A stretch of 46,039 nt of DNA from a virus: positions 1-46,039 of IMG/VR virus record IMGVR_UViG_3300020171_000051; one strand, written 5' to 3'. The notes under the pieces are model-generated. The model saw only the letters and a program-made list of their open reading frames with translations, did no database searches and had not been told where the DNA came from. The translations under genes and the position numbers were made by a program. Below, one piece after another: positions 3,529 through 46,039 of the stretch. The stretch's first letter is position 1, and each line of letters begins with the position of its first letter.

Positions 3529-5376
3529 ATGTCTGAAAAATACCAATTAAGGAAAGAAGTCTCTGGCTGGGTTACAAATCAGGAAAGCACATCTGACAAA
3601 GCTCTCCCTCATATGGTTTCAGGTTCACAAAACATTCTAATTGACCCTCGTTTTGGAAAGTTTAGTTCAAGAGGTGGATATTCACGACTTGGAGCAGGAA
3701 ACACAGCTTTAACACCGATTAGACAAGAGTTTAGATGGATAACTTCAACTGGAGAGGAGAGAGATTTAAGATGGTATGATGACGAATTAGAGGCATATTT
3801 AGGCACAATAGATGGAGTAGCAGTAAATGCTTGGACAAGAATTAAAAATAGTTTAAGCACTACAGCAATTCCGAGACGATGCACTTATTGGGATACTACA
3901 GAATTGATTGACCTTTTACTTTTTGTTCAAGGAGATGATAATATTTATGATTGGAGTGGAGCTATTACGACATTAGCTTCAGCAACTGTCAACACTTTGA
4001 CTAAAAATGGAATAGCAACTTGGGCAAATTCAAGATTTTTAACGGCAGGAACGCGAAAAGTTTTAATCAATGGCACAGAATATACTTATACAGGGGGAGA
4101 AACTACCACAACTTTAACAGGAGTTACGGGAGACCCTTCGGCAGAAGCGGTAAATAGTGTGGTTAGTCAAGTGGTGAGAACAAACGCCAATACTCCTTTA
4201 GCTGATAGAAATAACCATACGATATTTAACATTGAAAATCATATATTAGTAGGTTCAGACGAAGACGCTTTAGTTTATGTGTCAAAAAGCACTTCCTTTA
4301 CTGATTTTACTTATTCTTCACCAAGAGTTCCGACGGAAGGCGCCTTGCTTAAATTAACAGGCGCAACAAAAGGATTTGGCATAGTGAGTAAAATACCCAT
4401 TATATTTGGAGGCAAAAATGAAGTATTTACAATGGAATTTGAGCAATTGGCTGTGGGTGCGGTTTTAACTGAAACTTTAAAAATCAAGAAGCTAAAAACA
4501 GGCATAAATCAAGGAGCTTTTAATCAAGAAACAATAGTGCCAGTAGGTGATGGATTGATTTATTTAACAAATGAACCCACTTTAAGAATAATTGAAACTG
4601 TAGCAGGAGCAGACCAGCCACAAATACGAGCATTATCTAATCCAATTAAGCCAGACTTTGACGCTGAGACCTGGACGAATGCTTGTGCAATTTGGCATAA
4701 GAATAGATATTATCTTTCTGCCCCAGCAAATTCAAAACTTTACATATTAGAATACCAAGAAGATGCTGATGGAACTTTAAAAAGATTTTGGCAACCTCCA
4801 CAAATACTACCAGTTAGGTGTTTGACTATAATTTCTGATGCCTTATATGGACATTCAAATGCAGTTCCAGAAACCTATCTCCTATTTACAGGAAATGCTG
4901 ATGGAGTTTATACTGACATTGCAGTAGCAGATAAACTTCCAATAGAAGCAATAGCTAAACTTTCGTATAGAACTTATGGTGATAGGGCTAATTTAAAATC
5001 ACACGATGAGTTTTATGTGGAAGGAAATATCTCACCTGCGACAAATGATTTACAGCTGGTTTTAAGATACGACTACGGAGGAGCCACACAAGAGTCAACT
5101 TTTATAATAGACGGCACAAATCAAGACATTTTATATCAAACAATAGAAGAGACATCATTAGGACAGCAACCTTTAGGAACACATCCGATTGGAGGGGTGG
5201 TTCAAGAACCAACAGCACTTTCAAGGTTTAGAGTAATCTTTGAAATGCCAAAAGAAGACTATCACGAATTACAAGAAATTTATCAGAGTAATGGAGTTGA
5301 TAAATCTTGGGAAATAATTTCTGCTGGTGGTTCAGTTAAATTAAGTCCAAATCGGGACACTTTAATTCATTTATAA
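3529..5376 (+). CDS. Tail nozzle/hub-like protein
   Basis: The protein has 615 residues. It has repeated beta segments, including an arginine-glycine-rich N-terminus (FGKFSSRGGYSRLG), a central GFGIVSKIPIIFGGKNEVFTM stretch and an IWHKNRYYLSAPANSKLYIL segment. This combination resembles the beta-propeller nozzle (tail tubular B-like) proteins of short-tailed phages. It follows the adaptor-like gene, as expected for a podovirus tail. The start is the ATG at 3529 after an A-rich leader with no Shine-Dalgarno. A different structural role is possible. Confidence 0.55.
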   Translation: MSEKYQLRKEVSGWVTNQESTSDKALPHMVSGSQNILIDPRFGKFSSRGGYSRLGAGNTALTPIRQEFRWITSTGEERDLRWYDDELEAYLGTIDGVAVNAWTRIKNSLSTTAIPRRCTYWDTTELIDLLLFVQGDDNIYDWSGAITTLASATVNTLTKNGIATWANSRFLTAGTRKVLINGTEYTYTGGETTTTLTGVTGDPSAEAVNSVVSQVVRTNANTPLADRNNHTIFNIENHILVGSDEDALVYVSKSTSFTDFTYSSPRVPTEGALLKLTGATKGFGIVSKIPIIFGGKNEVFTMEFEQLAVGAVLTETLKIKKLKTGINQGAFNQETIVPVGDGLIYLTNEPTLRIIETVAGADQPQIRALSNPIKPDFDAETWTNACAIWHKNRYYLSAPANSKLYILEYQEDADGTLKRFWQPPQILPVRCLTIISDALYGHSNAVPETYLLFTGNADGVYTDIAVADKLPIEAIAKLSYRTYGDRANLKSHDEFYVEGNISPATNDLQLVLRYDYGGATQESTFIIDGTNQDILYQTIEETSLGQQPLGTHPIGGVVQEPTALSRFRVIFEMPKEDYHELQEIYQSNGVDKSWEIISAGGSVKLSPNRDTLIHL

Positions 5377-5391
5377 TTTAATAAAAATAAT

Positions 5392-6831
5392 ATGGAAATA
5401 ATAACAACAATAGGAAAAGCGATAGGAACAGCAATTATAGGATTAGGAATGCTCGTAGGCGGATGGTTTGGACTTCAACCAGCTCCTCCTATTCAACTTG
5501 GAGCTGACTCTGTTTTATTTTTCGGTGGCTCAACTTACTACATTTCAGGTTCAGGAATTACCTCAACAGGAACTTCTATAACTTTGACATCTTTGACTAT
5601 TCCTCAAACAGGACAAAAGATACTTGATGCTGACCTTTCAAGCACTTTCTTTATAACAATAGAACCCGGAAATACAACAAGACAAGAATTTACATCTTGC
5701 ACGACTGTCACTCAAAACTCAACTGGCACAGCAACTCTTTCAGGATGTTCAAGAGGACTATCTCCTATCTCGCCTTATACCGCCTCTACGACATTAGGAT
5801 TTGCCCATTCAGGAGGTTCAAAGGTAATATTCTCAAACCCTCCTCAAATTTATGACCAAGCGGCATTTAAGGCAAATGATGAGACCATCACTGGAACTTG
5901 GCTAATAGGAACTCCTACCGCTTCAACTCAAATAACAAATAAAACTTATGTAGATAATGTCGCTAACGCGGGAGCGGCTACCTCAACATCTTCAAATGGA
6001 GGTATTGTAGAAATAGGAACACAAGCTGAAATGGCTTCAGGAACGACAGCAGATGCAAACAAACCGCGAGTAATAATTACTGATTTTTCAACTTCAACAC
6101 CAGATGGGACTTCACAGGCAGGAAAGTTTGCAGTTATCTCAGAAACAGATGGAAAACTAAATCAAAAATGGTTAGATTTAACAGAAGATTATGCTTGGAC
6201 GGGAGCCCACACACATTCAGGAGTAAATACTTTTAATGGAGCAACAACAACAATTTCATCTGCTACAACTACGATAACAAGCACGACAGGGGTTGTAGGA
6301 ATAGCCACAACTACACCAACATTAAAGGCAAATGGAGTAAGTATAGGAGCAGATGTTTATATTGCAGGTGGATTGGGTGTAGGAGTAGCTACAACGACAG
6401 ATAATAACTTGGAAGTCGCAGGAAATATTTTAATTCGTGGAACAGCACAAGGGTTTCCAGCAATGAAAAGTGTTAATTATGCAACATCTACTGCATTTAT
6501 TATTGGTGCTGATTATACAGAAGTCGTGACGGTGGGTTTTAGACCAAAATCTATTGTAGGAACAGTTTTGCTTGACGGTCAAAATGATTCTAATATTCAC
6601 TGTATGTTTAGGTCTTATGAAGATAATGATTCATATTTTGGACAAGCGGTTGCGGGAACTGGTTTTATAGTTCAAACAGGAAAAATATGTGATTCAAACC
6701 AAACAAATGATGATATGATTGTTTCTATTTCAGCAGTTAGCTCAACGGGATTTACGATAACTTGGGATTGGGTCGCAGGAGGTTTCGCTACGGGAACTTT
6801 AATAAATGCAACAGTATTAGGGTTTGAATAA
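5392..6831 (+). CDS. Fibre-like surface protein with N-terminal membrane segment
   Basis: The protein has 479 residues. Residues 8-26 are hydrophobic (GKAIGTAIIGLGMLVGGWFG), so the product may be inserted in or exported across a membrane. The body is rich in Thr, Ser and Gly with short repeats such as ATTTISSATTTITSTTG and a TSTSSNGGIVEIGTQAEMA segment seen in many phage fibre proteins. The C-terminal 130 residues look like a compact beta domain (VVTVGFRPKSIVGTVLLDGQ), possibly a receptor-binding or trimer head. The start ATG has the AATAATATG context without a Shine-Dalgarno. Confidence 0.6.
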   Translation: MEIITTIGKAIGTAIIGLGMLVGGWFGLQPAPPIQLGADSVLFFGGSTYYISGSGITSTGTSITLTSLTIPQTGQKILDADLSSTFFITIEPGNTTRQEFTSCTTVTQNSTGTATLSGCSRGLSPISPYTASTTLGFAHSGGSKVIFSNPPQIYDQAAFKANDETITGTWLIGTPTASTQITNKTYVDNVANAGAATSTSSNGGIVEIGTQAEMASGTTADANKPRVIITDFSTSTPDGTSQAGKFAVISETDGKLNQKWLDLTEDYAWTGAHTHSGVNTFNGATTTISSATTTITSTTGVVGIATTTPTLKANGVSIGADVYIAGGLGVGVATTTDNNLEVAGNILIRGTAQGFPAMKSVNYATSTAFIIGADYTEVVTVGFRPKSIVGTVLLDGQNDSNIHCMFRSYEDNDSYFGQAVAGTGFIVQTGKICDSNQTNDDMIVSISAVSSTGFTITWDWVAGGFATGTLINATVLGFE

Positions 6832-27330: not shown

Positions 27331-27436
27331 ACTGCTCTAATTCAAGCAAAACTGCGTTCTGGGGCGTTTAAATAGGTGTAATAAGCATATCTATCAAAAT
27401 GCCTTAAATTATCAATAACCTAACCAATAAAATAAG

Positions 27437-27703
27437 ATGAAAGAAGAAATAAAAGAAATACTCGGTAAACATAAGGCAATTGGAGATACAACCTATGGGC
27501 TTGGATATGCAGAAGCCGAGCAACTCACCAATGAAATAATCGCATTCTTCTCTAAAAGGGCTGATGTGATTTATCAAGAGAGAAAAGAAGAGTTAGAAAA
27601 AGTCCATTTTAGAGATAAGAGCCGCACCTTTGTCATTGCTGGACTGGATTTAATTTATAACTTCAAGAAAGATGTTTTTGATAATGAAGATTTAACCCCC
27701 TAA
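27437..27703 (+). CDS. Small helical protein, unknown
   Basis: The product has 88 residues and is helical and charged (EIKEILGKHKAIGDTTYGLGYAEAEQL). Start context is ACCAATAAAATAAGATG, a boundary form repeated at several genes in this stretch. No motif is recognised. The 106 bases before it hold no clear signal. Confidence 0.55.
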   Translation: MKEEIKEILGKHKAIGDTTYGLGYAEAEQLTNEIIAFFSKRADVIYQERKEELEKVHFRDKSRTFVIAGLDLIYNFKKDVFDNEDLTP

Positions 27704-27713
27704 CTATATCAAG

Positions 27714-28067
27714 ATGAAGAAAGAAATTAAAACCAATAATGGTATCTGGGCTTATCACGGAACGAATAAAGAAAATGCACTTAAAATAATAAAAAGTGGA
27801 TTTGCTGTCGGAACTCATTTTGCCCATCATCTTGAAGAATGTTTGGAATTTGGCGGTTCGTGGGTGTTTCGTATCAGGTGGGAAAATAAGCCAGATAATT
27901 GGCAATTTCTTAACAAGAAACGTATTCCACCAAGTAGAATAGACCGACTTACACAATTTCGTTCGATTGTTAGGATTGGAACACAACCACACCTTACGAG
28001 AAAATTAGATGGTAAAGCCGAACATTATAATTTATTAGGTATCCCCCTAACCCCTATATCAAGATGA
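27714..28067 (+). CDS. Possible ADP-ribosyltransferase-like protein
   Basis: The product has 117 residues. IWAYHGTNKENALKIIKSGFAVGTHFAHHLEECLEFGGSW follows the H-G-T / G-F...G-T-F-A pattern of ART/PARP-type folds, where the His binds NAD. The glutamate expected later could be one of those in ECLEFGG. Phage ARTs modify host proteins or tRNA, but activity here is not shown. It lies among small accessory genes and overlaps the next ATG; its last codons run through the boundary repeat. Confidence 0.4.
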   Translation: MKKEIKTNNGIWAYHGTNKENALKIIKSGFAVGTHFAHHLEECLEFGGSWVFRIRWENKPDNWQFLNKKRIPPSRIDRLTQFRSIVRIGTQPHLTRKLDGKAEHYNLLGIPLTPISR

Positions 28068-28288
28068 AAAAGAAAAATAAGATAAACTTTAACGAAATGC
28101 CTGCAAAAACTTATATTGCTAATAATGGTTGGGTTTCGCAATGGTGTTGCACTTGCAAAACAAGACATATACTGCATCTCAAAATTCATAAAGGCAATAA
28201 AGAAACTGGTGGTGCTTATATAGAGATAAACTGGTTTCAAGATAATCTGGGAACAAAATTAAGGAAATTCTATGAGAAACACTTTTAA
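28064..28288 (+). CDS. Small Cys-containing basic protein
   Basis: The product has 74 residues. WCCTCKTRHILHLKIH gives a Cys/His cluster that may bind zinc, with a beta-like IEINW segment after it. It starts at the end of the boundary repeat (TCAAGATG), overlapping the previous stop. No family is recognised. Confidence 0.5.
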   Translation: MKKKNKINFNEMPAKTYIANNGWVSQWCCTCKTRHILHLKIHKGNKETGGAYIEINWFQDNLGTKLRKFYEKHF

Positions 28289-28309
28289 CCCCCTAACCCC
28301 TATATCAAG

Positions 28310-28621
28310 ATGAAACAAACAAAAGAAAACTTAATAATAGAACTGACTAAAATTAGGCAATCTCACGAAGAATGGGTTGCTGGAGATTTGAAACGAAGAA
28401 AAGAATTTGCGAGAGCATTTAGATGGAATAAACCTAAAAAGCAATATGATTATGGAGATGCTGAATTATATGAACCAACTTGGGTGGAAATATTTGTTGA
28501 ATTGGGAAAACTCCTCGCTGTTAAAAACTTTATGGATTTTAAAGGTAATATATCGGAGTTAGAATGTAAATTAGAAAATCTTGAACAGAAAATTAAAAAA
28601 GAAATACATCCTAATTTATAA
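28310..28621 (+). CDS. Helical protein, unknown
   Basis: The product has 103 residues, Lys/Glu-rich and helical, with a C-terminal coiled coil (ISELECKLENLEQKIKKEI). It starts in the boundary repeat. Nothing else is recognised. Confidence 0.55.
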   Translation: MKQTKENLIIELTKIRQSHEEWVAGDLKRRKEFARAFRWNKPKKQYDYGDAELYEPTWVEIFVELGKLLAVKNFMDFKGNISELECKLENLEQKIKKEIHPNL

Positions 28622-28634
28622 CCAATAAAATAAT

Positions 28635-28775
28635 ATGAAAGGAGAAATAAATAATGACATAATAAGCGAAGAGGAATTAGTTGATATGTTTGGCGAAGGT
28701 GGAGCAGAAGAAGTTAAAGAAAACTTTTCAAGTGAAAGTATAGAAGATATTGTAAGAACAGATTTTATAAATTAA
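28635..28775 (+). CDS. Short acidic protein
   Basis: The product has 46 residues and is very acidic (SEEELVDMFGEGGAEEVKENF). Start context is ACCAATAAAATAATATG. DNA-mimic or inhibitor roles are known for such phage proteins, but nothing here shows one. Confidence 0.45.
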   Translation: MKGEINNDIISEEELVDMFGEGGAEEVKENFSSESIEDIVRTDFIN

Positions 28776-28788
28776 CCCCTATATCAAG

Positions 28789-28956
28789 ATGAATAAAGAA
28801 ACATTAAAAGACAAAATAATATCGTGGTATTGGACGTTGTTGAGAAAAGTAATGAACTACACTCTTAAACATTATGGATATGATTTTGGAATATACTATA
28901 TGGAAGAAATTGAAAAAATGTATATTACAAACAAGCATTTAATTAAAAGAGACTAA
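28789..28956 (+). CDS. Short aromatic-rich protein
   Basis: The product has 55 residues, rich in Tyr, Trp and Lys (IISWYWTLLRKVMNYTLKHYGYDF), and amphipathic. It starts in the boundary repeat and ends in another copy of it. No family is recognised. Confidence 0.45.
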   Translation: MNKETLKDKIISWYWTLLRKVMNYTLKHYGYDFGIYYMEEIEKMYITNKHLIKRD

Positions 28957-29007
28957 CCCCCTAACCCCTATATCAAAATAATTATTAACTCTAACCAATA
29001 AAATAAG

Positions 29008-29211
29008 ATGAAAAACATAAAACCAAAAATAAAACATACAAGATTAGATACCATAATTGTTTCTTATAAGAAAAAGAGATATGAATTATATTTTGACCAA
29101 AATGATTATAGTGTCTTTATTGGAGAACCACAAGAAGGTTCATTAATAACAATTCCAAATCCATTAAATGAAAACGGAGAAATGAAGTTTAGTTATTATA
29201 AGGAATGGTAA
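29008..29211 (+). CDS. Small beta-type protein, unknown
   Basis: The product has 67 residues, with short beta segments (DTIIVSYKKKRYELYF, DYSVFIG). Start context is ACCAATAAAATAAGATG, the same 17-base form as at 27437. No known motif. Confidence 0.5.
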   Translation: MKNIKPKIKHTRLDTIIVSYKKKRYELYFDQNDYSVFIGEPQEGSLITIPNPLNENGEMKFSYYKEW

Positions 29212-31001: not shown

Positions 31002-31255
31002 AAAATCAAAAACAAATGATAATAAATAAACTTAAAATTGACGGCTTTGTTAATAGAAACTGGGCTTTACAGAATTTCTGCTCACGACTTGGAGCGATTA
31101 TACACAAATTAAAACGAGAAGGATGGAAATTTGAAGCCCGATACATTAAAACAGAAAAAGGATTGGACTACGCATATTATACGATTAAGATGCCCTATAA
31201 GAAAGTGATTTATGAAATCCCAGAGTTAAATCGTGAAATAGTTAGTTATGAATAA
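30998..31255 (+). CDS. Small winged-helix DNA-binding protein
   Basis: The product has 85 residues. NRNWALQNFCSRLGAIIHKLKREGWKFEARYIKTEKG follows the pattern of small phage winged-helix proteins (a recognition helix RLGAIIHKLKREGW followed by a beta wing). It may regulate the operon, which contains two methyltransferase genes. It overlaps both neighbouring genes. Confidence 0.65.
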   Translation: MKNQKQMIINKLKIDGFVNRNWALQNFCSRLGAIIHKLKREGWKFEARYIKTEKGLDYAYYTIKMPYKKVIYEIPELNREIVSYE

Positions 31256-32303
31256 AATAATACAAGGAGATGCATTAGAAGTTTTAAAAACACTTGAAAA
31301 CGAAAGTATAGATTGCGTTATCACTTCACCGCCTTACTGGGCTTTAAGAGATTATGGAGTAGAAGGACAATTAGGATTAGAACCAACATTTCAAGAATAC
31401 ATAACTAAACTTTGTGATATTTTTGACGAAGTGAAACGAGTATTAAAAAAAGAAGGGACTTGCTGGGTTGTGATTGGAGATACTTATTATGGGTCAGGTA
31501 AAGGTGTTGGTGGTGATATAAAAAAAAGTAAAGAAAGTTATCAGATGCCAGAAGATTGGAAGAGACCATCAAGAGATAATTTTAACAAAATAAAAGTTGA
31601 ATGTGTGTGCTTGTTTTGTAAACAGAAATTTAAAGGAAAACCAAAATCACAATTTTGCTCAACAACTTGTCTAAACAAAATGGGTAATGATTTTAGAAGT
31701 CAAAATAGGCAAATGCCCGATAAATCTCTTTGCCAAATCCCCTCCCGCTTCACAATAGAAATGACAAATCGTGGCTGGATATTAAGAAACGAAATCATCT
31801 GGCATAAACCGAATTGTATGCCTTCAAGTGTCAAAGATAGATTTACGGTAAATTTTGAGAAGGTTTTTTTCTTTGTTAAAAATAAGAAATATTGGTTTGA
31901 GACACAATATGAAAAATATACTGCGCCAATGAATAGGTGGGGTGGCGATAAGTTAAAAGCTGATGGTAAAAGTAATTGGGATAATGGAACAGGACAAGAC
32001 ACTTATAGAGATAGAAATATGCGACCAAATGAAGAAGGAAGAAACAAACGAACCGTCTGGACTATAACTACCAAACCTTTCAAAGAAGCCCACTTTGCTG
32101 TCTTTCCCGAAGCACTTATTGAACCAATGATAAAAGCAGGGTGTCCTGTTAATGGAATAGTTTTAGATTGTTTTTTTGGAGCAGGAACGACAGGGGTGGT
32201 TTCATTAAAGTTAGACAGAAAATATTTAGGAATAGAATTAAATCCCGAATATATAAAAATCGCACAAGATAGAATTAAACCTTATGAGAATAAATTATTT
32301 TAA
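31248..32303 (+). CDS. DNA methyltransferase, N4-cytosine/N6-adenine (beta class), with inserted zinc module
   Basis: The protein has 351 residues. TSPPYW at 26-31, which is common in N4-cytosine enzymes, comes before the SAM-binding DCFFGAGTTG near residue 307, followed by LDRKYLGIELNPEYIKIAQ. An insertion near residues 119-145 (CVCLFCKQKF...QFCSTTC) is a Cys4 zinc module of the type seen in the HNH proteins of this phage. It starts inside the gene upstream and overlaps the start of the small protein after it. Confidence 0.9.
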   Translation: MNKIIQGDALEVLKTLENESIDCVITSPPYWALRDYGVEGQLGLEPTFQEYITKLCDIFDEVKRVLKKEGTCWVVIGDTYYGSGKGVGGDIKKSKESYQMPEDWKRPSRDNFNKIKVECVCLFCKQKFKGKPKSQFCSTTCLNKMGNDFRSQNRQMPDKSLCQIPSRFTIEMTNRGWILRNEIIWHKPNCMPSSVKDRFTVNFEKVFFFVKNKKYWFETQYEKYTAPMNRWGGDKLKADGKSNWDNGTGQDTYRDRNMRPNEEGRNKRTVWTITTKPFKEAHFAVFPEALIEPMIKAGCPVNGIVLDCFFGAGTTGVVSLKLDRKYLGIELNPEYIKIAQDRIKPYENKLF

Positions 32304-32527
32304 TGAATAAAATTTGTAAAATCTACCAAGAACCCTACTGGGAAAACAAAGAACCAGATTTCCAGGAATTAGTTGATAGAATAATAAAAACTACTTCTTG
32401 CGTAAACGGCTGTAAATATCACGATAATCTAAAAGTAATGTGGGTAGATTTACATAATGGTCGTATTCTGTGGTGGTGTCTGCGCCATTCTGTTATGTGG
32501 AATAGCTTAAATGAGAGGAGTAAATGA
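32303..32527 (+). CDS. Small protein, paralogue 1 (WVDLHNGRILWWCL family)
   Basis: The product has 74 residues. It is a clear paralogue of the protein at 33148: both have CxxG/C, H-x-NLKVMWVDLHNGRILWWCL-x-HS-x-MW-x-SL. The Cys and His residues suggest a metal site. It starts on the last base of the methyltransferase stop (TAATG). Two copies, each directly after a methyltransferase gene, suggest a partner role. The function is unknown. Confidence 0.65.
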   Translation: MNKICKIYQEPYWENKEPDFQELVDRIIKTTSCVNGCKYHDNLKVMWVDLHNGRILWWCLRHSVMWNSLNERSK

Positions 32528-32528
32528 T

Positions 32529-33155
32529 ATGAAATACCCAGACGATTTTATAAATAAAGTAATCTGCGGAGATTGTTTAGAAGTTATGAAAGATAAACCA
32601 AAAGACAAAACATTTCATTATACAAATCCTGAAATGGTAAGAGATTTAATTCGTCTTGTTCCAATTAGTGAACAAGATACAATTTTGGACGCTGGAAGTG
32701 GTAAAAATAAGGTATGGTTTAATGAATTAAGAAGTAAAAAATTTGAATTTGCAAAAATAACAGATAAAGAATGTACACACGGAAATTATGTTGGTTGGTG
32801 TGATGATTGTGAAGATAAAAATAAAATATATGAATGTGAAATAGATGATGGATGTGATTTCTTTGAGTGGGATAAAAAGGTTGATTGGGTTATAGGAAAT
32901 CCCCCATTCCATCTTGGTTGGGCTTTTTTAGATAAAGCAAGTGAAATCGCAGAAAAAGGAATTGCCTTTTTGGGAAATCTTAATTTTTGGAATAGTTGTT
33001 TACCTAATAGATTTGAAAAGTTAAAAGAGAAAGGATTTTATTTGAACAAAATACATATCTTACAAGATAAAAGGTGGTTTGGTAGATATTATTTTCTGGT
33101 ATTTGAGAAGAAAGAAAACAACTTTGTAAGTTGGAACACAAATACTTATGAATAA
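32529..33155 (+). CDS. Chimeric DNA methyltransferase (NPPF type)
   Basis: The protein has 208 residues from the ATG with GAGGAG eight bases upstream. The first 27 or so residues (INKVICGDCLEVMKDKPKDK) match the start of beta-class enzymes, but then a different enzyme follows: SAM motif ILDAGSGKN, then VIGNPPFHLGWAF as the catalytic motif. An extra Cys/His-rich part (CTHGNYVGWCDDCEDKNKIYEC) lies between them. It looks like a fusion of a leftover start and an N6-adenine-type enzyme. Confidence 0.75.
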   Translation: MKYPDDFINKVICGDCLEVMKDKPKDKTFHYTNPEMVRDLIRLVPISEQDTILDAGSGKNKVWFNELRSKKFEFAKITDKECTHGNYVGWCDDCEDKNKIYECEIDDGCDFFEWDKKVDWVIGNPPFHLGWAFLDKASEIAEKGIAFLGNLNFWNSCLPNRFEKLKEKGFYLNKIHILQDKRWFGRYYFLVFEKKENNFVSWNTNTYE

Positions 33156-35326: not shown

Positions 35327-35584
35327 ATGGAAATCCAAAATATAGAAAATTGGCTTCAAAGATTAGAGGTAAGATACTTTAGCGAAAAAGCTACGCAAGA
35401 TACAAAGATTTACAATTTAGAACAGCAAACTAAACTATTCTTGCAATTAGCCAGTGAGGTAAAAGAATTAAAAGACGCAAGATTAAGACAAATAGAGTTA
35501 AACGGACAGATTTTAGAAACATTGAAATTTTTAAGCAAACCAATAGAAATAAAATCAAGTTTTTTTAGTAGATTATTTAAGTAA
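35327..35584 (+). CDS. Small coiled-coil protein before chaperonin
   Basis: The product has 85 residues, almost all coiled coil (LEQQTKLFLQLASEVKELKDARLRQIELNGQILETL), with a basic end (SFFSRLFK). It is not GroES-like: there is no beta barrel or mobile loop. It ends 13 bases before the chaperonin gene and may act with it. Confidence 0.55.
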   Translation: MEIQNIENWLQRLEVRYFSEKATQDTKIYNLEQQTKLFLQLASEVKELKDARLRQIELNGQILETLKFLSKPIEIKSSFFSRLFK

Positions 35585-35597
35585 GTAAAAATAAACA

Positions 35598-37199
35598 ATG
35601 GAACAAGAACAAATGATTATCCTAACAGGATACGAAGCCAGAGTAAAGTTAATGGCTGGAATAGAAAAAGCTGCTAAAATTATAAACTCCACGCTGGGGC
35701 CTGGAGGGAAGAATGTTATTTATGAGTCAGAGTACAACAGGCGAGTAAATGTAGCTGATGATATGTATGATAGTCAAGCTCCAACAATTACAAATGATGG
35801 GGTAAAAGTTGCTTCAAAGGTAATTTTTGAAGACCCCATTGAAGATTTGGGGGCACAAGCATTATTTGAGGTCTCAAAACAGCAAAACATAGAAGCAGGA
35901 GACGCTACCACCACAGTAGTAACGATTGCTCACAAACTAATTCAGTTGATAATGAATAAACTAAATGAGGGAGGTGAATTAGATGTTGAGACTATAAATA
36001 GAATGGAGCTTAAAAGGGAACTAAACAAAGCCAAAGACGAGGTGATTGCCGAACTTAAAAAGAAAGCCAAACCAATTAAGACCCTACAAGAACTTGAAAA
36101 TATAGCAATGACAGCGGGAGAGAACGAGTTTATTGATAAAAAAATAGCGGAAGCGTGGTGGAAAGTAGGAAAAGATGGTTGGGTTGGAGTTGAAGGACAC
36201 AAAGGACTTGAGACAGAAATTGAAGTTCACGAAGGTATGAGATTTCACGCCAAGTTAATGAGTGAGTATATGAGAACCAATGCAAAAGGTGAAATGGAAG
36301 TAAAAGAACCCCTCGTTATTGTAACTAATCACGATATAGATAATTCAGAACAAATAAAAGGATGGATACAAAAAGCGACACAAAAAATAAAATTTGACAT
36401 AGTTTTATTTGCCCCAAAGTTTTCAGCCAAAGCGACAGATTTTATAAATACAGCAAGAATGAAAGTGGAACAATTCAATGTAGCAAACAAAAATAAAGGA
36501 GTAAAAGCGGTAAGATTATTTGCAGTTAAAATTCCTTCATTAACCGAAAAGGAAGGGGGACAAGTGGAAGACCTTGCAATTTTTACAGGAGCAAAGTTTA
36601 TAGACAAACACAAATCAATGAGTATGGAAGATTCTAATGTTGATTATTTCGGATATGCTACAAAAGTATTCTGTGATAATGACATAGCAATCGTAGCCAG
36701 TGATAATGGAGATGTAAAAAAGAGAATAAAGGATTTAACAATTCAAATGAACTCCGAAAAAGACGACACATTTAAAAATCGCCTAAAAAATAGAATAGCA
36801 TCACTATCATCAGGCATAGCTATAGTAAAGGTAGGAGCAACAACTGATACTGAGAGAAGATATATCAAACTTAAAACAGACGATGCGGTTCATTCTTGTG
36901 GAAATGCACTGCAAGATGGATATATTACTGGAGCGGGACAGGTTCTTAAAAAACTACCTTGTAAAAATGAATATCTTAAAAAGGCGTTAGAGTCACCTTA
37001 TAATCAGATACAAACAAATGCAGGAAATATAGATATACCAAAGTGGGTAATAGACCCAGTAAAATCAATGATACTTGCGATAGAAAGAGCTGTAAGTATG
37101 GCATCAATGATTATCACCATTGATACTTGTGTGGCTTATAAGAGGGATAATGATTTAAGTAAAAAGTTTGATGAGATATTAAAAGTATTAAAGAAATAA
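35598..37199 (+). CDS. groEL-like: GroEL-type chaperonin, phage-encoded
   Basis: The protein has 533 residues, near the usual 540. Family marks in order: LGPGGKNV (32-39), ITNDGVKVA, DLGAQA, GDATTTVV (near 101, catalytic Asp kept), the apical domain, SSGIAIVKVGATTDTE (near 405), the ATPase Asp in KTDDAVHS (near 424), and VIDPVKSMILAIERAVSMASMII (near 484). The GGM tail is missing. No GroES gene is seen nearby. Phage chaperonins fold virion proteins, often without a co-chaperonin; the terminase and capsid genes follow directly. Confidence 0.92.
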   Translation: MEQEQMIILTGYEARVKLMAGIEKAAKIINSTLGPGGKNVIYESEYNRRVNVADDMYDSQAPTITNDGVKVASKVIFEDPIEDLGAQALFEVSKQQNIEAGDATTTVVTIAHKLIQLIMNKLNEGGELDVETINRMELKRELNKAKDEVIAELKKKAKPIKTLQELENIAMTAGENEFIDKKIAEAWWKVGKDGWVGVEGHKGLETEIEVHEGMRFHAKLMSEYMRTNAKGEMEVKEPLVIVTNHDIDNSEQIKGWIQKATQKIKFDIVLFAPKFSAKATDFINTARMKVEQFNVANKNKGVKAVRLFAVKIPSLTEKEGGQVEDLAIFTGAKFIDKHKSMSMEDSNVDYFGYATKVFCDNDIAIVASDNGDVKKRIKDLTIQMNSEKDDTFKNRLKNRIASLSSGIAIVKVGATTDTERRYIKLKTDDAVHSCGNALQDGYITGAGQVLKKLPCKNEYLKKALESPYNQIQTNAGNIDIPKWVIDPVKSMILAIERAVSMASMIITIDTCVAYKRDNDLSKKFDEILKVLKK

Positions 37200-37200
37200 G

Positions 37201-37365
37201 ATGATGAGAATATTAAAAAAATTTCCAATAATTCTAACCAAACAAAAGGATTTTTTGGGAAGTCAAATAGATAAAGACGGATACGGTAGGTATAATGAAG
37301 CCACTGTATTTTTACTACCAGAAGATGCTGTCTTAATAGAAATGCCAGAAGATAAGAAATTATGA
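37201..37365 (+). CDS. Small protein after chaperonin
   Basis: The product has 54 residues, a basic start (MRILKKFPIILTKQKDF) and an acidic end (EDAVLIEMPEDKK). It starts right after the chaperonin stop, so it is co-transcribed. The size is about half that of GroES and the GroES loop is absent. A 16-residue hydrophobic peptide frame (37362-37412) follows and may be chance. Confidence 0.45.
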   Translation: MMRILKKFPIILTKQKDFLGSQIDKDGYGRYNEATVFLLPEDAVLIEMPEDKKL

Positions 37366-37467
37366 TTGAAACTATGTTTATTGGTATAGTAATTTTAGCG
37401 ATAAGTGATTAAAAAATAATAGGTAGAGTAGCAACAAAAAGATTTGTTGTTAATCAACAGGAAAACA

Positions 37468-37719
37468 ATGACATTTGTAAAAGGAAAATCAGGAAATCCT
37501 AAAGGAAGACCTAAGGGGAAAACATTAAAAGAATGGCTTAAAGATAAGTTAGCTGATATGTCTGTGGAAGAGAGAGAGGAATTTATTAAAACAATACCTA
37601 AGGAAATGCAATGGAGAATGGCTGAAGGAAATCCAAGACAAGACACAGGTGTTCAAGTAGAGGGAGAAATCAAAGTAGAAATATCAGAAGAAATAGCTTC
37701 AAAGAATAAGATAACTTAA
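37468..37719 (+). CDS. terS: Small terminase-like DNA-binding protein
   Basis: The product has 83 residues from the ATG at 37468, which has CAGGA at the right distance; a TTG upstream is weaker. It begins with GKSGNPKGRPKG (residues 6-17), a minor-groove-type basic motif found in small terminase and DUF5681-like proteins, followed by helices. The stop overlaps the next ATG (TAATG) of the large terminase. It is short for a small terminase, so the assignment rests on position. Confidence 0.65.
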   Translation: MTFVKGKSGNPKGRPKGKTLKEWLKDKLADMSVEEREEFIKTIPKEMQWRMAEGNPRQDTGVQVEGEIKVEISEEIASKNKIT

Positions 37720-38924
37720 TGTATTTGCATCCCACACAAGCAATAGTAGCTAAAGATTTACATCGTTTTAGAGTATTAAGATGTGGAAGAAGATGGGGAA
37801 AGACGATGTTGATTAGCGAAGAAATAAAAGGATTAGTTCTATCAGGAGAAAAAAAGATAGCTTACATAGCTAATAACTATCAACAAGCTCGTGATATTAT
37901 ATGGGAGATATTGAAAAGAGAATTAAATCCAATTATAATTGATAAGAATGAAGCAAGATTAGAGATTTTAGTTAGAACATTAAATGGAAAACAAAGTCAG
38001 ATAGTATTAAGAGGTTGGGAAAGTATTGAAAACTTAAGAGGACAAGCGTTTCACTTTTTAGCAATAGACGAAGTGGCGATGATGAGTAATTTCTGGGTTG
38101 GTTGGCAGGAGGTGTTAAGACCAACACTAACAGACTATAAGGGAATGGCTATGTTCACTTCAACACCGAAAGGATATAATCACTTCTTTGATTTATGTAA
38201 TTTAGAACTTACGGATGAGAATTTTAAAACATTTCACTTTACATCCTACGAAAATCCACATTTACCAAAAGATGAAATAGATGACGCCAAAAGAACTTTG
38301 CCAGAAGAACGATTTGAACAAGAGTATATGGCAAGCTTTGAAAAGACAGCAGGACTTGTTTATAAAGAATTTGACAGAGAAAGACATCTATATGATTTTC
38401 TACCCACCCCACCTTTAGATAAGAAATATACAAAAATAGGAGCGATTGATTTTGGTTATAGAAATCCTGCCGCAGTTTTAGATATAAGATTTGATGATGA
38501 AATGATATATGTTGAAAGTGAATGGTATAAAATGGAAAGAACAGAGATACAAATAGCAGAATATGTGGCAGGAAACAAGTTTGATGCAGTATATCCCGAC
38601 CCAGAAAGTCCTTCCGCTATTGAGGAATTAAGACGAAAAGGCATAAATGTAAGAGAAGTAGTTAAAGGAAGAGATAGTATAAAATCAGGTATTCAAAAGA
38701 TAAGAGAATTACTGATTTCAGGTAAAATAAGAATAAATAGAAAGTGTGTTAATTTGATTAGTGAGTTTGAAACTTATTCGCACGAAGAAATTAAAGATGA
38801 TAAAAACAAGCCAGAAAATCCTATTAAATCAAACGACCACGCTTTGGACGCTTTGAGATATTTCATTCTGATGATGGATACAAAACCACAACAACTAAAA
38901 CAATTTAGACCAAAGTGGCAATAA
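37719..38924 (+). CDS. terL: Large terminase subunit (ATPase and nuclease)
   Basis: The protein has 401 residues. Walker A GRRWGKT at 23-29, Walker B FLAIDEVA near 110-117 and the coupling motif FTSTPKG near 145 define the packaging ATPase. The C-terminal nuclease has IGAIDFGYRNPAAVLDI, VYPDPESP and DHALDALRYF, with the metal-binding Asp residues. It pumps DNA into the procapsid and cuts it. It is a little shorter than average. It is translated with terS (1-base overlap). Confidence 0.95.
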   Translation: MYLHPTQAIVAKDLHRFRVLRCGRRWGKTMLISEEIKGLVLSGEKKIAYIANNYQQARDIIWEILKRELNPIIIDKNEARLEILVRTLNGKQSQIVLRGWESIENLRGQAFHFLAIDEVAMMSNFWVGWQEVLRPTLTDYKGMAMFTSTPKGYNHFFDLCNLELTDENFKTFHFTSYENPHLPKDEIDDAKRTLPEERFEQEYMASFEKTAGLVYKEFDRERHLYDFLPTPPLDKKYTKIGAIDFGYRNPAAVLDIRFDDEMIYVESEWYKMERTEIQIAEYVAGNKFDAVYPDPESPSAIEELRRKGINVREVVKGRDSIKSGIQKIRELLISGKIRINRKCVNLISEFETYSHEEIKDDKNKPENPIKSNDHALDALRYFILMMDTKPQQLKQFRPKWQ

Positions 38925-41684: not shown

Positions 41685-42347
41685 ATGGAACAAGAAAAGG
41701 AACAAAAAAAGGTGGAAGAAGAATCATCAGCCACCGATGAAAAAGAGGAGGAACAAAAACCTGAGAAACAGGAAGAAGAAGAAAAAGACGACTTTGATTA
41801 TAAGTCGGAGTTTGAAAAGTTAAAAGGCACCAAAGAAAAGAAAGATTACGCTTGGAACAAACTTCATAAGGAAAACAAAGACCTCAAAGAAAAACTCAAG
41901 GAACTGGGTGGAGAAGAGGATAAAGAAGATGTCCGAGACATTATCAAAGAAGAGATTAGTGGGTTAAGAAGCGAGCTTTTAAGCAATAAGTCAGAATCGG
42001 AGATTGCTAAACTTACCGACAATCAATTTGGAAGAGAATTGATTAGATTAAATTTAGAGAGATTTCCAGGAATGTCTATTGAGGATGCTTGGTTTCTTGC
42101 CAACAGAGGCAGATTGGAAGGACAAATGTCTGAAATGAAAAAGACATCCCTTTCAAAAGAACGCAAAGGTTCTGGTTCAGGAGCAGGACAAAAAGACCAA
42201 AAGTCAAAAGAACCTCAAATATCTTCTGATGATATGACAATAATTAACAGAATGGGGCTTAAATGGGACGGAAACGCCTTCACAAAGCCAAAAGGTAAAT
42301 TTGGTCTCAAATTAGAAGGAGACAAACTTGTTCAAATAAAGACATAA
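41685..42347 (+). CDS. Capsid scaffold protein
   Basis: The product has 220 residues. The first 100 are extremely Glu/Lys-rich and helical (EEEQKPEKQEEEEKDDFD), then a helix-rich middle, and a basic C-terminus (KPKGKFGLKLEGDKLVQI), as in scaffolds that bind the coat protein. It lies just before decoration and coat genes. It would guide capsid assembly and then leave or be cut. Confidence 0.75.
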   Translation: MEQEKEQKKVEEESSATDEKEEEQKPEKQEEEEKDDFDYKSEFEKLKGTKEKKDYAWNKLHKENKDLKEKLKELGGEEDKEDVRDIIKEEISGLRSELLSNKSESEIAKLTDNQFGRELIRLNLERFPGMSIEDAWFLANRGRLEGQMSEMKKTSLSKERKGSGSGAGQKDQKSKEPQISSDDMTIINRMGLKWDGNAFTKPKGKFGLKLEGDKLVQIKT

Positions 42348-42380: not shown

Positions 42381-42911
42381 ATGGCAGTTCAAAAAGTATT
42401 TAAGGTTGTAGAAGACCCTGGATGCGCCATTATTGCAAGAGTTGAAGACAGGACAACATCTTCAATGACTGCAGCAATAGCAAAAGGAGAACCTCTAAAG
42501 ACAAGAACAGTGCAGAATAGTGCAGCAACAGACTTGATTCCAGTAGGAGATGGAGACCCTGAAATAGCAGTCGACGATTTTATTGGAATTGCAAATAGTG
42601 CTTCAACAGAAGCCGCAGCAACAACTGAGGGCGTAGTTGAGGTTATTCTTTGCAAAGGTTCAACATTCATAAGAGGAAAAGCTACAACATTCGCAAATAT
42701 AGACACACAAGCAGAAATTGATGTGTTGTTATTTGCGTGGGTGACTTTTGATGTCACTGCATTAACGAATACAAATGGAGACTTCACGGTTGATGAAAAC
42801 GAAACATTAGACAGCAATGTTAATGGACTCCAAATTATGAGAGGCGACCCAGTATTAGGAACTTTAGATGTTAGAGTTCATTCACTAATTTTGGACGCTT
42901 ATGTTGCTTAA
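42381..42911 (+). CDS. Head decoration/stabilising-like protein
   Basis: The product has 176 residues, beta-rich and Thr/Ala-rich, with FIGIANSASTEAAATTEGVVEVILCKGSTFIRGKA, the alternating pattern of small head decoration (gpD-like) proteins. It lies between scaffold and coat genes, as expected. The start ATG is in an AAAGATATG context. Confidence 0.6.
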   Translation: MAVQKVFKVVEDPGCAIIARVEDRTTSSMTAAIAKGEPLKTRTVQNSAATDLIPVGDGDPEIAVDDFIGIANSASTEAAATTEGVVEVILCKGSTFIRGKATTFANIDTQAEIDVLLFAWVTFDVTALTNTNGDFTVDENETLDSNVNGLQIMRGDPVLGTLDVRVHSLILDAYVA

Positions 42912-42930: not shown

Positions 42931-44717
42931 ATGAAATTAGATGCACAAGTCGTCTCTTAATTCGTAGCGACTTTTTAGTGGAAACACTAATTGACAAATC
43001 TTGCCTAATCAATGGGGAAAACCCTGAGAAGGACAACCCTCAAGAACCCGAAAGGGACTTGCAGAGACTGAGTGGTGAGACTCCTAACAGATAATGCTGA
43101 GGAAGAAGCGACAGTCCGAACTACACATATAATCTAAAAACGAAAGTGTAGAGATAAGTAGAAATGACTTATCCATTAGAACCTTGAAAATTACATAGCA
43201 ATAGAGTATAATATCATAGATGGTATTTTATAGAGGAAACAAAGAAAGACTTGGGACAAAACACAAACAAGAGACAATCAATAAAATGAGGAGGTCTGAT
43301 GTGTGGTCTAATATAGATGAAGCCAAGAGATTATATTTAGAAGGTAAAACTTGTAGAGAAATTGGTGAAATCTTAAAAATCAATCATATTACACTTGGAA
43401 AGGGATTGAAACGAATTGGTGTTAAAATGAGAATGTCTAAACCACGAAAAGGAAATATCGCTTGGAATAAAGGAAAGAGATATTTAGCAATTACTGGAGA
43501 TAAAAACCCTAACTGGAAAGGAGGTATTTCAGGAATCAGAGATGAAATCAGACATTGTTTAGAATATAAACAATGGAGAAAGGAAGTCTTTGAACGAGAT
43601 AATTATACTTGTAAAAAATGTAATAAAAGAGGTGGAGAATTAGAAATCCACCACAATATAAAAACATTTTCTGAGATTTTAATATCAAATAATATAAAAT
43701 CAACGGAAGATGCAATACTATGTAATGAGTTTTGGAATATAGATAACGGGATAACTCTTTGTCTAAATTGCCACAATAAAACAAAAGGTAATAATAGTAA
43801 CAAAATGACGAACAGAGCTTGATGAGGTTCTCTTTGAGGAATATGAAAGGGAGTCAGCTCCAGGCGAAATTCTCGCAACTGATGGTTTGTTCGTAAAGCA
43901 AAAGGATATATCAAAAGGGTATGTAATATACGCTGAAAATATGGGTCCTGGCGCTTTTGAAAAACACGTTCAGGAGCAAAATGTAAAAGAGTCAACTACA
44001 AAAGTTGGCAATAAAGTAACGAAGGAAATAGAAAACTGGAAGAACTCTTTGCCCGTGGCGATTGAGTCTTACGAAGATGACCAGCACGATGTTATCCAAG
44101 ATAATGTTCGTGAGATGGGAATTAACGCAAGAATCACAAGGGATAAAGATGTAATTCAGACATTGTATGGTGATGGATTTGACGAGACAACGACACCTGA
44201 CGGTGTTTATACTTGGTCAAACTCACACTTAAATCTAAATGGGGACACAATAGATAATCTGGAAACAGGAACACTAACTCCAGCAAACCTTGAAACACTT
44301 GTTAAGTCATTAAGACTGCAAAAGAAACAAGATGGTTTGTTAGGTGGACACAATCCAGCAGGATTGGCAGTCCCAGTAGCATTATTCCCTGACGCGCAGG
44401 AAATAACAAAATCAGAATTAGCAGCTCACACAGGTGAAAATCAACTTAACTACTTCTCGGCAATTTATCCAGGATTAGTAGTTGGCTCATCTGGTTTTCT
44501 TGACAGCACCTTTAACGACTACACCAATGCTAATACTTCACATTATTTGGTATCAAGAAATCACAAACTTACAAGAACAGTAAGATTAGGATTGACCACA
44601 GAATTGATACCTTATCAATTTGACCAAAAAGACAGATGGTTTTACAAGGCACGATATAGAGAGGTGCCTTCAGCTAAAGGTTGGCAGGGAGCAGTAGCTT
44701 CTTCTGGAACAGTCTAA
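42931..44717 (+). CDS. Major capsid protein, interrupted by a group I intron
   Basis: Exon 1 is 42931-42953 (23 bases) and exon 2 is 43811-44717; joined they give 309 residues in one frame, starting MKLDAQVVTELDEVLFEEYE. Without splicing the frame stops soon after exon 1 (TCTTAA). The body (YTWSNSHLN, LAVPVALFPDAQEI, FYKARYREVP) fits an HK97-fold coat protein of Mu gpT-like style. Exon 2 alone is open back to 43809. The C-terminal 208 residues match the left window end. It forms the capsid shell. Confidence 0.88.
42954..43810 (+). mobile_element. Group I intron with HNH gene in the capsid gene
   Basis: P1: exon end AAGTCGT pairs with GCGACTT, with the splice-site U-G pair in the right place. 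P2: TTAGTG-GAAA-CACTAA. A GGGG-AAAA-CCC stem then GACAACCC and the core GCAGAGACTG follow; P7 pairs GACTG (43066) with CAGTC (43112). Stems CTACAC/GTGTAG and GATAAGT/ACTTATC come after. The intron ends in G (43810). Length is 857 bases. Splicing here restores the coat frame. P10 pairing is not clear. Confidence 0.88.
43184..43212 (+). promoter_or_regulatory. Sigma70-type promoter inside intron, leaderless HNH gene
   Basis: TTGAAA, 17 bases, TATAAT, ending seven bases before the HNH ATG. The same hexamers and spacing occur before the holin (22586). The HNH gene may thus be made from its own transcript, apart from the capsid mRNA. Confidence 0.7.
43220..43822 (+). CDS. Intron-encoded HNH homing endonuclease
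   Basis: The protein has 200 residues. An N-terminal helix-turn-helix-like segment (KRLYLEGKTCREIGEILKINHITLGKGLKRIG), a NPNWKGG motif as in NUMOD-type DNA-binding modules, and a C-terminal HNH core (CKKCNKRGGELEIHHN, then NGITLCLNCHNKTKG) are all present. Its last 12 bases run into exon 2. It would cut intronless capsid genes to spread the intron. It has its own promoter. Confidence 0.9.
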   Translation: MVFYRGNKERLGTKHKQETINKMRRSDVWSNIDEAKRLYLEGKTCREIGEILKINHITLGKGLKRIGVKMRMSKPRKGNIAWNKGKRYLAITGDKNPNWKGGISGIRDEIRHCLEYKQWRKEVFERDNYTCKKCNKRGGELEIHHNIKTFSEILISNNIKSTEDAILCNEFWNIDNGITLCLNCHNKTKGNNSNKMTNRA

Positions 44718-44733
44718 TTATTACTAACCAACT

Positions 44734-45411
44734 ATGACTATGAAAGAAACAATTAAATTAGTCGCTATAGTTCTCATTGCAGGACTTATTGGTGGTTTCG
44801 TAGGCGGTCTGGTTGGTAATCAATCAGACTACTTAGGAAGTGGCACACGCTTTCCCAGTGGGTTAAGTGCAGACGGCACTTCACCTATTGCGGGAGAAGT
44901 TAGAGGAACTACTCTAACGATTACAGGAGCACAAACTCTTACAGGGGCAACAACTCTTTCAAGCACCCTTACAGCAAATGGATTAGCTACATTTAATGCG
45001 GGGTATTATCACAGTTATACTAATTCAACATCTACAACGGCAACGACTCAAACTCTTGTAGCTGCAGATATCTTGAATTACACAAGTATAATTTTGACAC
45101 CTAATGTTGGAGCATTAACACTCACATTTCCAGCTTCTTCTACTCTATCGGCAATGGTGCCAGTAGCAGGAGATAGTTTTAAGCAATGTTGGTATAACGC
45201 TACAACAACCGCAGCAGTAACAATTACATTTGCAGCAGGAACAGGTATTGATTTTCAGAGAGCAGCAACTACAACTACGGATGGTGGAGCTACAACAGCA
45301 TTTCCTATTGACGAACAAGGTTATGCTTGTCTAACATACTTTAGACAACCAGCAACATCTTCAACATTTGATATTGGTGTTCTTATGACAGGATATCTAA
45401 ATGCGGATTAG
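44734..45411 (+). CDS. Variable virion-type protein, second version
   Basis: The product has 225 residues. A hydrophobic N-terminus (LVAIVLIAGLIGGFVGGLVG) is followed by the same VGNQS-YLG-GTRFPSG-SAD-SP block as in the protein at 1215, then a diverged body and a longer C-terminus with GTGIDFQRAATTTTDGGATTAF. Neighbouring genes are almost identical between copies, so this gene changes faster. Start at ATG 44734, with a second ATG at 44740. Confidence 0.6.
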   Translation: MTMKETIKLVAIVLIAGLIGGFVGGLVGNQSDYLGSGTRFPSGLSADGTSPIAGEVRGTTLTITGAQTLTGATTLSSTLTANGLATFNAGYYHSYTNSTSTTATTQTLVAADILNYTSIILTPNVGALTLTFPASSTLSAMVPVAGDSFKQCWYNATTTAAVTITFAAGTGIDFQRAATTTTDGGATTAFPIDEQGYACLTYFRQPATSSTFDIGVLMTGYLNAD

Positions 45412-45455
45412 TTCATCCATTCAACTTCTCAATTTGGGAAGTTGAGTTGGGTGAG
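45412..45455 (+). promoter_or_regulatory. Conserved intergenic RNA hairpin (right copy)
   Basis: Outer stem TTCATCCA/TGGGTGAG and an 11-bp inner stem TTCAACTTCTC/GGGAAGTTGAG around AATTT, with the same bulged T as at 1854. Inner pairs have changed together between the copies (T-A to A-T, T-A to C-G), so the fold is under selection. Confidence 0.8.
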
Positions 45456-45484
45456 CTAAAATTAAAAGTTAACAATTAACGATT

Positions 45485-45871
45485 ATGAACAAAATTATTG
45501 GAATAGGAATAGTGGTAATAGGACTTATTGTCTTATTGACTACTGGAACTATGCAACTTGGTGGAGTGGTTCAAAATACGCCAACATATTCTGATGTGGC
45601 CACAAGTGGAATTATATCATTTACAAGTTCTACTCAGATATTGGCAACAACATCAAGAAGGGCTTATGCTGTAATATGCAACACGACAGCAACGAATGCC
45701 GCTTATTTAAGTTTTAGAGCAGATGCAGTGCCAGCTAACGGACTATTAGATTTTGAACTTGGAACTGGTGAATGTTATGAAATTGACAATGACAACCTTT
45801 ATGTAGGAGCTGTTAGAGCAACATCATCAACAGGCACAATAAATTTAACAGTAACAGAATTTAAAGATTAA
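45485..45871 (+). CDS. Small virion-type protein with N-terminal membrane segment, second version
   Basis: The product has 128 residues, the same length and N-terminal hydrophobic segment as the protein at 1932, with about six changes (Asn to Asp in YSDV, Met to Ile and Ile to Phe in the next segment, Ser to Ala, and two near EIDNDN). The TAATG overlap with the adaptor gene is kept. Confidence 0.65.
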   Translation: MNKIIGIGIVVIGLIVLLTTGTMQLGGVVQNTPTYSDVATSGIISFTSSTQILATTSRRAYAVICNTTATNAAYLSFRADAVPANGLLDFELGTGECYEIDNDNLYVGAVRATSSTGTINLTVTEFKD

Positions 45872-46039
45872 TGACCACTCAAAACCTAAAGCAAGAACTT
45901 ACGGGAATGTTGCACGGAAGCACTCTTAATAAAGTGCGAAACTTTTACGATTTATGTAAAAGGGCTTCTGGCAATGTTTTACTAAAGATAGACCCCGCAG
46001 AAACGAGGAGAATTGCCAATCTTACAAACGCAATACACG
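45871..46039 (+). CDS. Head-tail adaptor-like protein, N-terminal part (cut by window end)
   Basis: The first 56 codons match the protein at 2318 (TTQNLKQELTGMLHGSTLNKV against TIQNLKAEISGMLHGSTLNKV), with the changes limited to the first residues. The rest is outside the window, or is the left copy if the unit is circular. Confidence 0.8.
   Translation, partial: MTTQNLKQELTGMLHGSTLNKVRNFYDLCKRASGNVLLKIDPAETRRIANLTNAIH

Follow-up and report, generated by a model that had tools for sequence, protein, structure and literature searches.

The analysed DNA (hereafter the window: the whole stretch of 46,039 nucleotides of the IMG/VR virus record IMGVR_UViG_3300020171_000051) carries an open reading frame with an ATG start whose product, as the first-pass annotation had proposed, is a phage-encoded chaperonin. 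It matches PF00118 (Cpn60_TCP1) with 85.5 bits, above the curated cut-off of 34.3, as well as the 'chaperonin groEL' profile PHROG 5725 and group I chaperonins in PDB (E-values down to 2e-61); its closest relatives in PDB are not those of group II (thermosome/CCT), all of the 60 matches listed being group I or organelle Cpn60s or parts of them. When the protein is aligned with the GroEL of E. coli, its D67, D102 and D429 fall on D52, D87 and D398, so the ATPase aspartates, said earlier to be kept, are all three present, and the GGM tail is indeed absent, the C-terminus being LSKKFDEILKVLKK. The protein had also been described as full-length. This holds in as much as the Cpn60 match spans nearly its whole length, but GroEL residues ~423-438, 460-464 and 471-491 are missing, all of these deletions lying in the C-terminal equatorial half. 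Besides the insertion in the equatorial stem loop (Table 1), alignment with GroEL reveals an insertion of 11 residues in the apical helix region, which occurs in the Cpn60 of the related locus L002 too. The position of the gene just before terminase and capsid genes was likewise recognized correctly, and the genes of the large terminase subunit, the portal and the major capsid protein follow it.

Table 1. Features of the chaperonin gene and of the adjoining head module in the window
Feature	Coordinates	Strand	Evidence or remark
85-aa coiled-coil-like ORF directly upstream of cpn60	35327..35584	+	31% identical homologue in the same place in L002; not Cpn10
cpn60, 533-aa viral chaperonin (short-equatorial clade)	35598..37199	+	PF00118 (4e-24), PHROG 5725 (6e-74), clade and tree
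~13-residue insertion, equatorial stem loop (YNRRVNVADDMYDS region)	35733..35774	+	Common only to the window and L002
Asp67 codon (GroEL D52, catalytic)	35796..35798	+	Alignment; Asp in 40/40 clade members
Asp102 codon (GroEL D87, Mg/ATP)	35901..35903	+	Asp in 40/40 clade members
Asp429 codon (GroEL D398, catalytic)	36882..36884	+	Asp in 39/40 clade members
Deletion junction 1 (GroEL ~423-438 missing, incl. E434)	36957..36971	+	E434 missing in 40/40 clade members
Deletion junction 2 (GroEL ~460-464 and 471-491 missing, incl. E461, S463, V464, N479, A480, A481)	37023..37043	+	Missing in 40/40 clade members
54-aa ORF directly downstream of cpn60	37201..37365	+	
DUF5681 protein; its position makes it a candidate small terminase subunit	37444..37719	+	PF18932 (2e-8)
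Terminase large subunit (TerL)	37719..38924	+	PHROG 2 (4e-50), PF03237 (3e-16)
Portal, 649 aa	38998..40947	+	Conserved in 30 loci; SU10_portal PF23899 (6e-11) in a relative
Conserved head-module gene, scaffold position	41685..42347	+	Function inferred from position only
Conserved head-module gene preceding the major capsid gene	42381..42911	+	
Major capsid protein, candidate client	43887..44717	+	PHROG 371 (7e-7)

The portal of the window has no match among GenBank phages, and the capsid protein has a single weak one. The SU10_portal match, obtained for one of the seven aligned portal members, is consistent with a podovirus, though it is not a proof. TerL differs between the window and L002 (8339-9859 in the latter), while the portals are about 71% and the Cpn60s 62% identical, pointing to a terminase exchange. 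Upstream of cpn60, L002 also contains an ORF (4590-5429) resembling by eye a trypsin-like (HtrA-like) serine protease. Elsewhere in the window, a motif (CTAACCCCTATATCAAGATGAA and CTAACCAATAAAATAAGATGAA) recurs upstream of many small ORFs (27420-29031) and is perhaps a shared signal of transcription or translation start; genes of DNA methyltransferases, or fragments of such genes, occupy 31248-32303 and 32511-33155, together with HNH-like matches and a near-repeat of 108 nucleotides at 32418 and 33269.

The ends of the window repeat each other (positions 1-645 correspond to 44090-44734 at 97% identity, with further similarity up to 46039), as an assembly would show when the copies at its ends differ slightly, and for this reason the genome appears complete, with a size of about 44 kb (~43.6-44.1 kb). 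The C-terminal part of the major capsid protein is repeated in this redundant end (2-628). The identity of the end repeats (1-2486 and 44090-46039) is uneven, being 97%, about 90%, 75-78% and 92%, which suggests that two strain variants were joined in the assembly. Since the genome is apparently complete, the absence of GroES from it is meaningful. The earlier statement that no GroES lies nearby can be extended to the entire record: no PF00166 (Cpn10) match turned up there with the threshold relaxed to E <= 10, whereas the same search was positive in 12 of 14 control genomes, and a purpose-built Cpn10 profile gave none in the window either.

To find relatives of the protein, viral sequences were scanned; the first scans, with the bare protein and with a two-row alignment, recovered only L002, while profile scans yielded a clade of 40 viral loci whose Cpn60s are 29-62% identical to that of the window. 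The clade was defined by no more than 9 residues replacing GroEL 459-490, no more than 14 replacing 425-448, and monophyly with those columns removed, and the window protein belongs to it. Its members have 5-8 residues in place of the 32 of GroEL 459-490 and 10-13 in place of the 24 of 425-448, and positions 427-438, 461-464 and 471-490 are missing in at least 90% of them. All 40 members show this equatorial reduction, versus none of 80 bacterial GroELs, a sample chosen for the TNDG motif and not exhaustive. Outside the clade, the protein of the crAss-like cr108_1 (L007), which does not group with it, is reduced to some extent in the same way, to 9 and 15 residues. The K51N substitution (TNDG) was considered as a mark of the clade and rejected, since many Firmicutes and Parcubacteria have it too and the bacterial sample had been chosen by this motif. 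The conserved equatorial deletion, which the first-pass annotation had missed, is the unusual part of this chaperonin.

Chaperonins had been called rare in phages and mostly restricted to large ones. This is only partly right: 222 of 50,697 GenBank phage records match Cpn60, nearly all at 22-29% identity, and these include podoviruses of 60-73 kb (ctfjg026, elemo, phi38:1), in which cpn60 has cpn10 adjacent or near; in crAss-like phages (L007, L010, L011) cpn60 stands several genes upstream of the terminase. Many IMG/VR contigs also carry the gene, a pattern scan having given at least 583 confirmed Cpn60 relatives, some of which are host-derived contig edges. Members of our clade may occur among the virioplankton chaperonins reportedly surveyed by Marine et al. 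in 2017. As to the gene being unusual in a 44-kb podovirus, that view finds no support as worded, for it recurs in this uncultivated lineage of ~40-kb genomes: a search based on the portal, and thus independent of the chaperonin, found cpn60 in 13 of the 19 loci with at least 5.5 kb of upstream sequence. The gene is therefore common but not universal in the portal lineage, and the six scorable loci without it indicate that the head does not always need this chaperonin. One portal-lineage virus, L275, has a lone Cpn10-like protein (1130-1453, E 4e-13) where its relatives have cpn60, which recalls gp31 of T4.

In 32 of the 40 clade loci cpn60 lies upstream of TerL and/or the portal gene on the same strand, and in contigs of sufficient length the head genes that come next, as far as the major capsid gene, are the same from locus to locus. 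A second arrangement is found in L113, L118, L120 and L124, which possess a different head module with cpn60 immediately behind the major head gene, assigned by PHROG 1328 in L113 and L118 (E 4e-34 and 2e-33) and by similarity in L120 and L124. Folding of the coat protein by Cpn60 would fit this gene order, but a place beside head genes does not establish the client, since the late operons of phages comprise a large number of genes. Nothing in the analysis points to the very large injected proteins, which had been suggested earlier as alternative clients. A family of 60-100-aa proteins is encoded upstream of cpn60 in some ten loci of the clade: its genes end a few bases before it in L103 (9763-9987), L111, L114, L123, L125, L126, L131, L019 and L115, and farther from it in L112. 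The candidacy of this family as a new Cpn60 partner is weakened by L259, L260 and L286, which carry it without cpn60 before the terminase/portal genes. The 85-aa ORF upstream of cpn60 in the window was rejected as a co-chaperonin, having no similarity to Cpn10 and no homologue beyond L002.

The lack of a co-chaperonin gene is a property of the whole clade. Searches with PF00166, through stop-to-stop ORFs of at least 30 aa and with an iterated GroES profile run at the highest sensitivity detected no Cpn10 in any of the 29 clade records searched whole (seven of them of 38-43 kb), nor was any found in the window and eight further cpn60-bearing records located via the portal. With the iterated profile, Cpn10 was found at 0 of 40 clade loci vs 77 of 80 bacterial loci, and at 56 of 127 other, nearly all viral, loci; many of these loci are truncated, and they do not represent phylogenetically independent cases. 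A hidden Cpn10 in the window or the clade was thus rejected, none of the profile and ORF searches having given a credible match in the clade. The missing gene is compatible with the use of a host lid, and the main rival explanation is that Cpn60 recruits the GroES of the host and runs a host-type cycle, so that the phage need not encode a lid. Patescibacteria-related bacteria, the likely donor type, do encode GroES (9/9 genomes tested), and the apical-groove positions 199, 204, 237, 259 and 263 stay mostly hydrophobic in the clade. However, L234 of the GroES/substrate groove is lost in most clade members (hydrophobic in 29% of them, the figures being 88% for other viral proteins and 100% for bacterial ones), the window protein has the apical insertion of 11 residues, and among viral relatives whose equatorial domain is intact many have a Cpn10 of their own (L132, L144 and L043 of the close ones, though not L171, and also elemo, phi38:1 and immuto), while no member of the short clade has one. 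We therefore regard the recruitment of host GroES as unlikely.

The residues lost by the clade include some that in GroEL take part in ring pairing and in contacts with the nucleotide. E434, E461, S463 and V464, which make inter-ring contacts, are deleted in all 40 members, and R452 is replaced by Asn in the window; the GroEL mutant R452E/E461A/S463A/V464A falls into single rings (PMC12696368; PMC2741606). The adenine-contact loop N479-A481 is deleted in all 40 members as well, and in GroEL N479, A480 and A481 are nucleotide contacts (PMC2741606). With part of the adenine pocket gone, the protein may bind ATP weakly or in an altered way. R197 is replaced by Ala or Gly in 34 of the 40 members, and the D83-K327 pair is not kept.

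The rest of the nucleotide site is preserved in a family with a mean column identity of 39%: D52, D87, T89, G414, G416 and D495 are present in 40 of 40 members, D398 in 39, and T30 and G32 are among the nucleotide-site residues kept in 38-40 of them. The sole exception at D398 is L120 (8016-9515), which has Asn there and possibly a slow or dead ATPase. For close pairs of clade members dN/dS is 0.022, 0.013 and 0.056; between the window and L002 it is ~0.14, with dS saturated. The conservation of the active site together with the low dN/dS, a sign of purifying selection, leads us to conclude that Cpn60 is maintained as a nucleotide-driven machine. The same evidence bears on a moonlighting or structural role of the ring (an accessory of the portal or scaffold, or a virion component) instead of a folding chaperone. 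The usual location of the gene within the head module, the remodelled equatorial domain and apical surface, and the extra insertions in the window and L002 would agree with such a role, but the active-site residues are kept in all members except L120, and we consider it very improbable.

The first-pass annotation had also raised the concern of a recent pick-up from the host followed by decay. The equatorial domain is indeed shortened relative to GroEL, as might be expected of a captured and decaying groEL gene; however, the same deletion is shared by 40 divergent viruses, dN/dS between close members is low (0.013-0.06), the best bacterial match has about 32% identity, and the GC and GC3 of the gene agree with the rest of the genome. 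The gene is not decaying, and recent capture can be regarded as refuted.

A tree calculated after removal of the reduced columns unites the 36 distinct clade members in a single group (one change, SH-aLRT 91); this was a quick maximum-likelihood search without bootstrap, from which the EL and OBP sequences were left out, and the support of the clade is moderate. The clade is sister to the viral L043 and is nested in a set with a support of 99 which includes GroELs of Parcubacteria, Kaiserbacteria and Pacebacteria along with the viral L132 and L171. The probable ancestor of its cpn60 is thus a groEL of the Parcubacteria type, acquired in an old uptake after which groES and the equatorial segments would have been lost. 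The tree also suggests, without showing it, that the clade viruses have hosts of the Parcubacteria type. A portal profile used to look for a provirus had no match in 379 genomes from the phylum of a Kaiserbacteria genome.

Considering all of the above, we think it rather probable that the window encodes a GroES-independent, ATP-hydrolysing Cpn60, most likely a single heptameric ring, dedicated to the head proteins of the phage. Without a lid, binding and release of the client could be accomplished by ATP-driven movement of the apical domains or, as proposed for EL, in a partial enclosure, and the likeliest client would be the major capsid protein. The more specific proposal, that the clade is a natural, obligately single-ring and lid-free subfamily derived from group I, which has had its ring-ring interface and adenine-side loop removed and folds the head proteins of an uncultivated, podovirus-like lineage with ~40-kb genomes, is put forward more tentatively, as a plausible one. 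A sub-case of the main explanation, with which its likelihood overlaps, is a single-ring holdase that blocks aggregation of the capsid protein without encapsulation or active folding. The absence of an encoded lid and the example of EL, which keeps proteins from aggregating although it neither encapsulates them nor uses GroES (PMC7185714), make this possible; the near-invariant catalytic aspartates and phosphate-site residues imply an ATP-driven cycle instead, although sequence alone cannot separate a holdase from an active folding machine, and on the whole we doubt that it is a mere holdase. If the main explanation is confirmed, the protein would be a minimal folding machine of one ring, a case separate from those of the giant phages and with its likely client next door. 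It offers a small natural experiment, specific to viruses, on the needs of a chaperonin, in which the catalytic core is fixed but lid and ring-ring interface have disappeared together with part of the nucleotide pocket, and it extends the carriage of chaperonins to a widespread lineage of ~40-kb phages without a cultured relative.

With GroEL and other group I Cpn60s the protein shares the three-domain sequence over nearly its whole length, D52/D87/D398 and the TLGP and GDxTTT motifs, the nearest GroELs in the tree being Parcubacteria-type; it differs from GroEL in its ~30% identity and, as the clade does, in lacking ~427-438, 461-464, 471-490, the GGM tail, R197 and a groES partner gene. The chaperonins of giant phages, EL gp146, OBP gp246 and AR9 gp228, are reported to function without a co-chaperonin, and single rings were observed for them (PMC7185714; PMC9598537). 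EL has a loop instead of helix 462-471 and has lost two allosteric salt bridges, D83-K327 and R197-E386 (PMC7185714); our clade likewise does not keep R197 and the D83-K327 pair. In contrast, PBS1 (AR9-like) and Madawaska fall far outside the clade (split with a support of 100; EL and OBP are not in the tree) and keep the equatorial segments that the clade has lost, PBS1 having 34 residues where the window has 6. Wu et al. (2021) described a separate group of soil viral chaperonins (PMC8390657). Other Cpn60s encoded by phages, such as the Flavobacterium phages elemo and immuto, Cellulophaga phi38:1 and ctfjg026, some of which are podoviruses of 60-73 kb, differ from the clade in that their equatorial domain is full or less reduced and that Cpn10 is usually encoded as well. 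Finally, gp31 of T4 and CocO of RB49 are phage-encoded factors of the chaperonin pathway serving the folding of head proteins (PMC9598537); these are replacements of GroES, whereas the phage of the window encodes the chaperonin itself and no lid.
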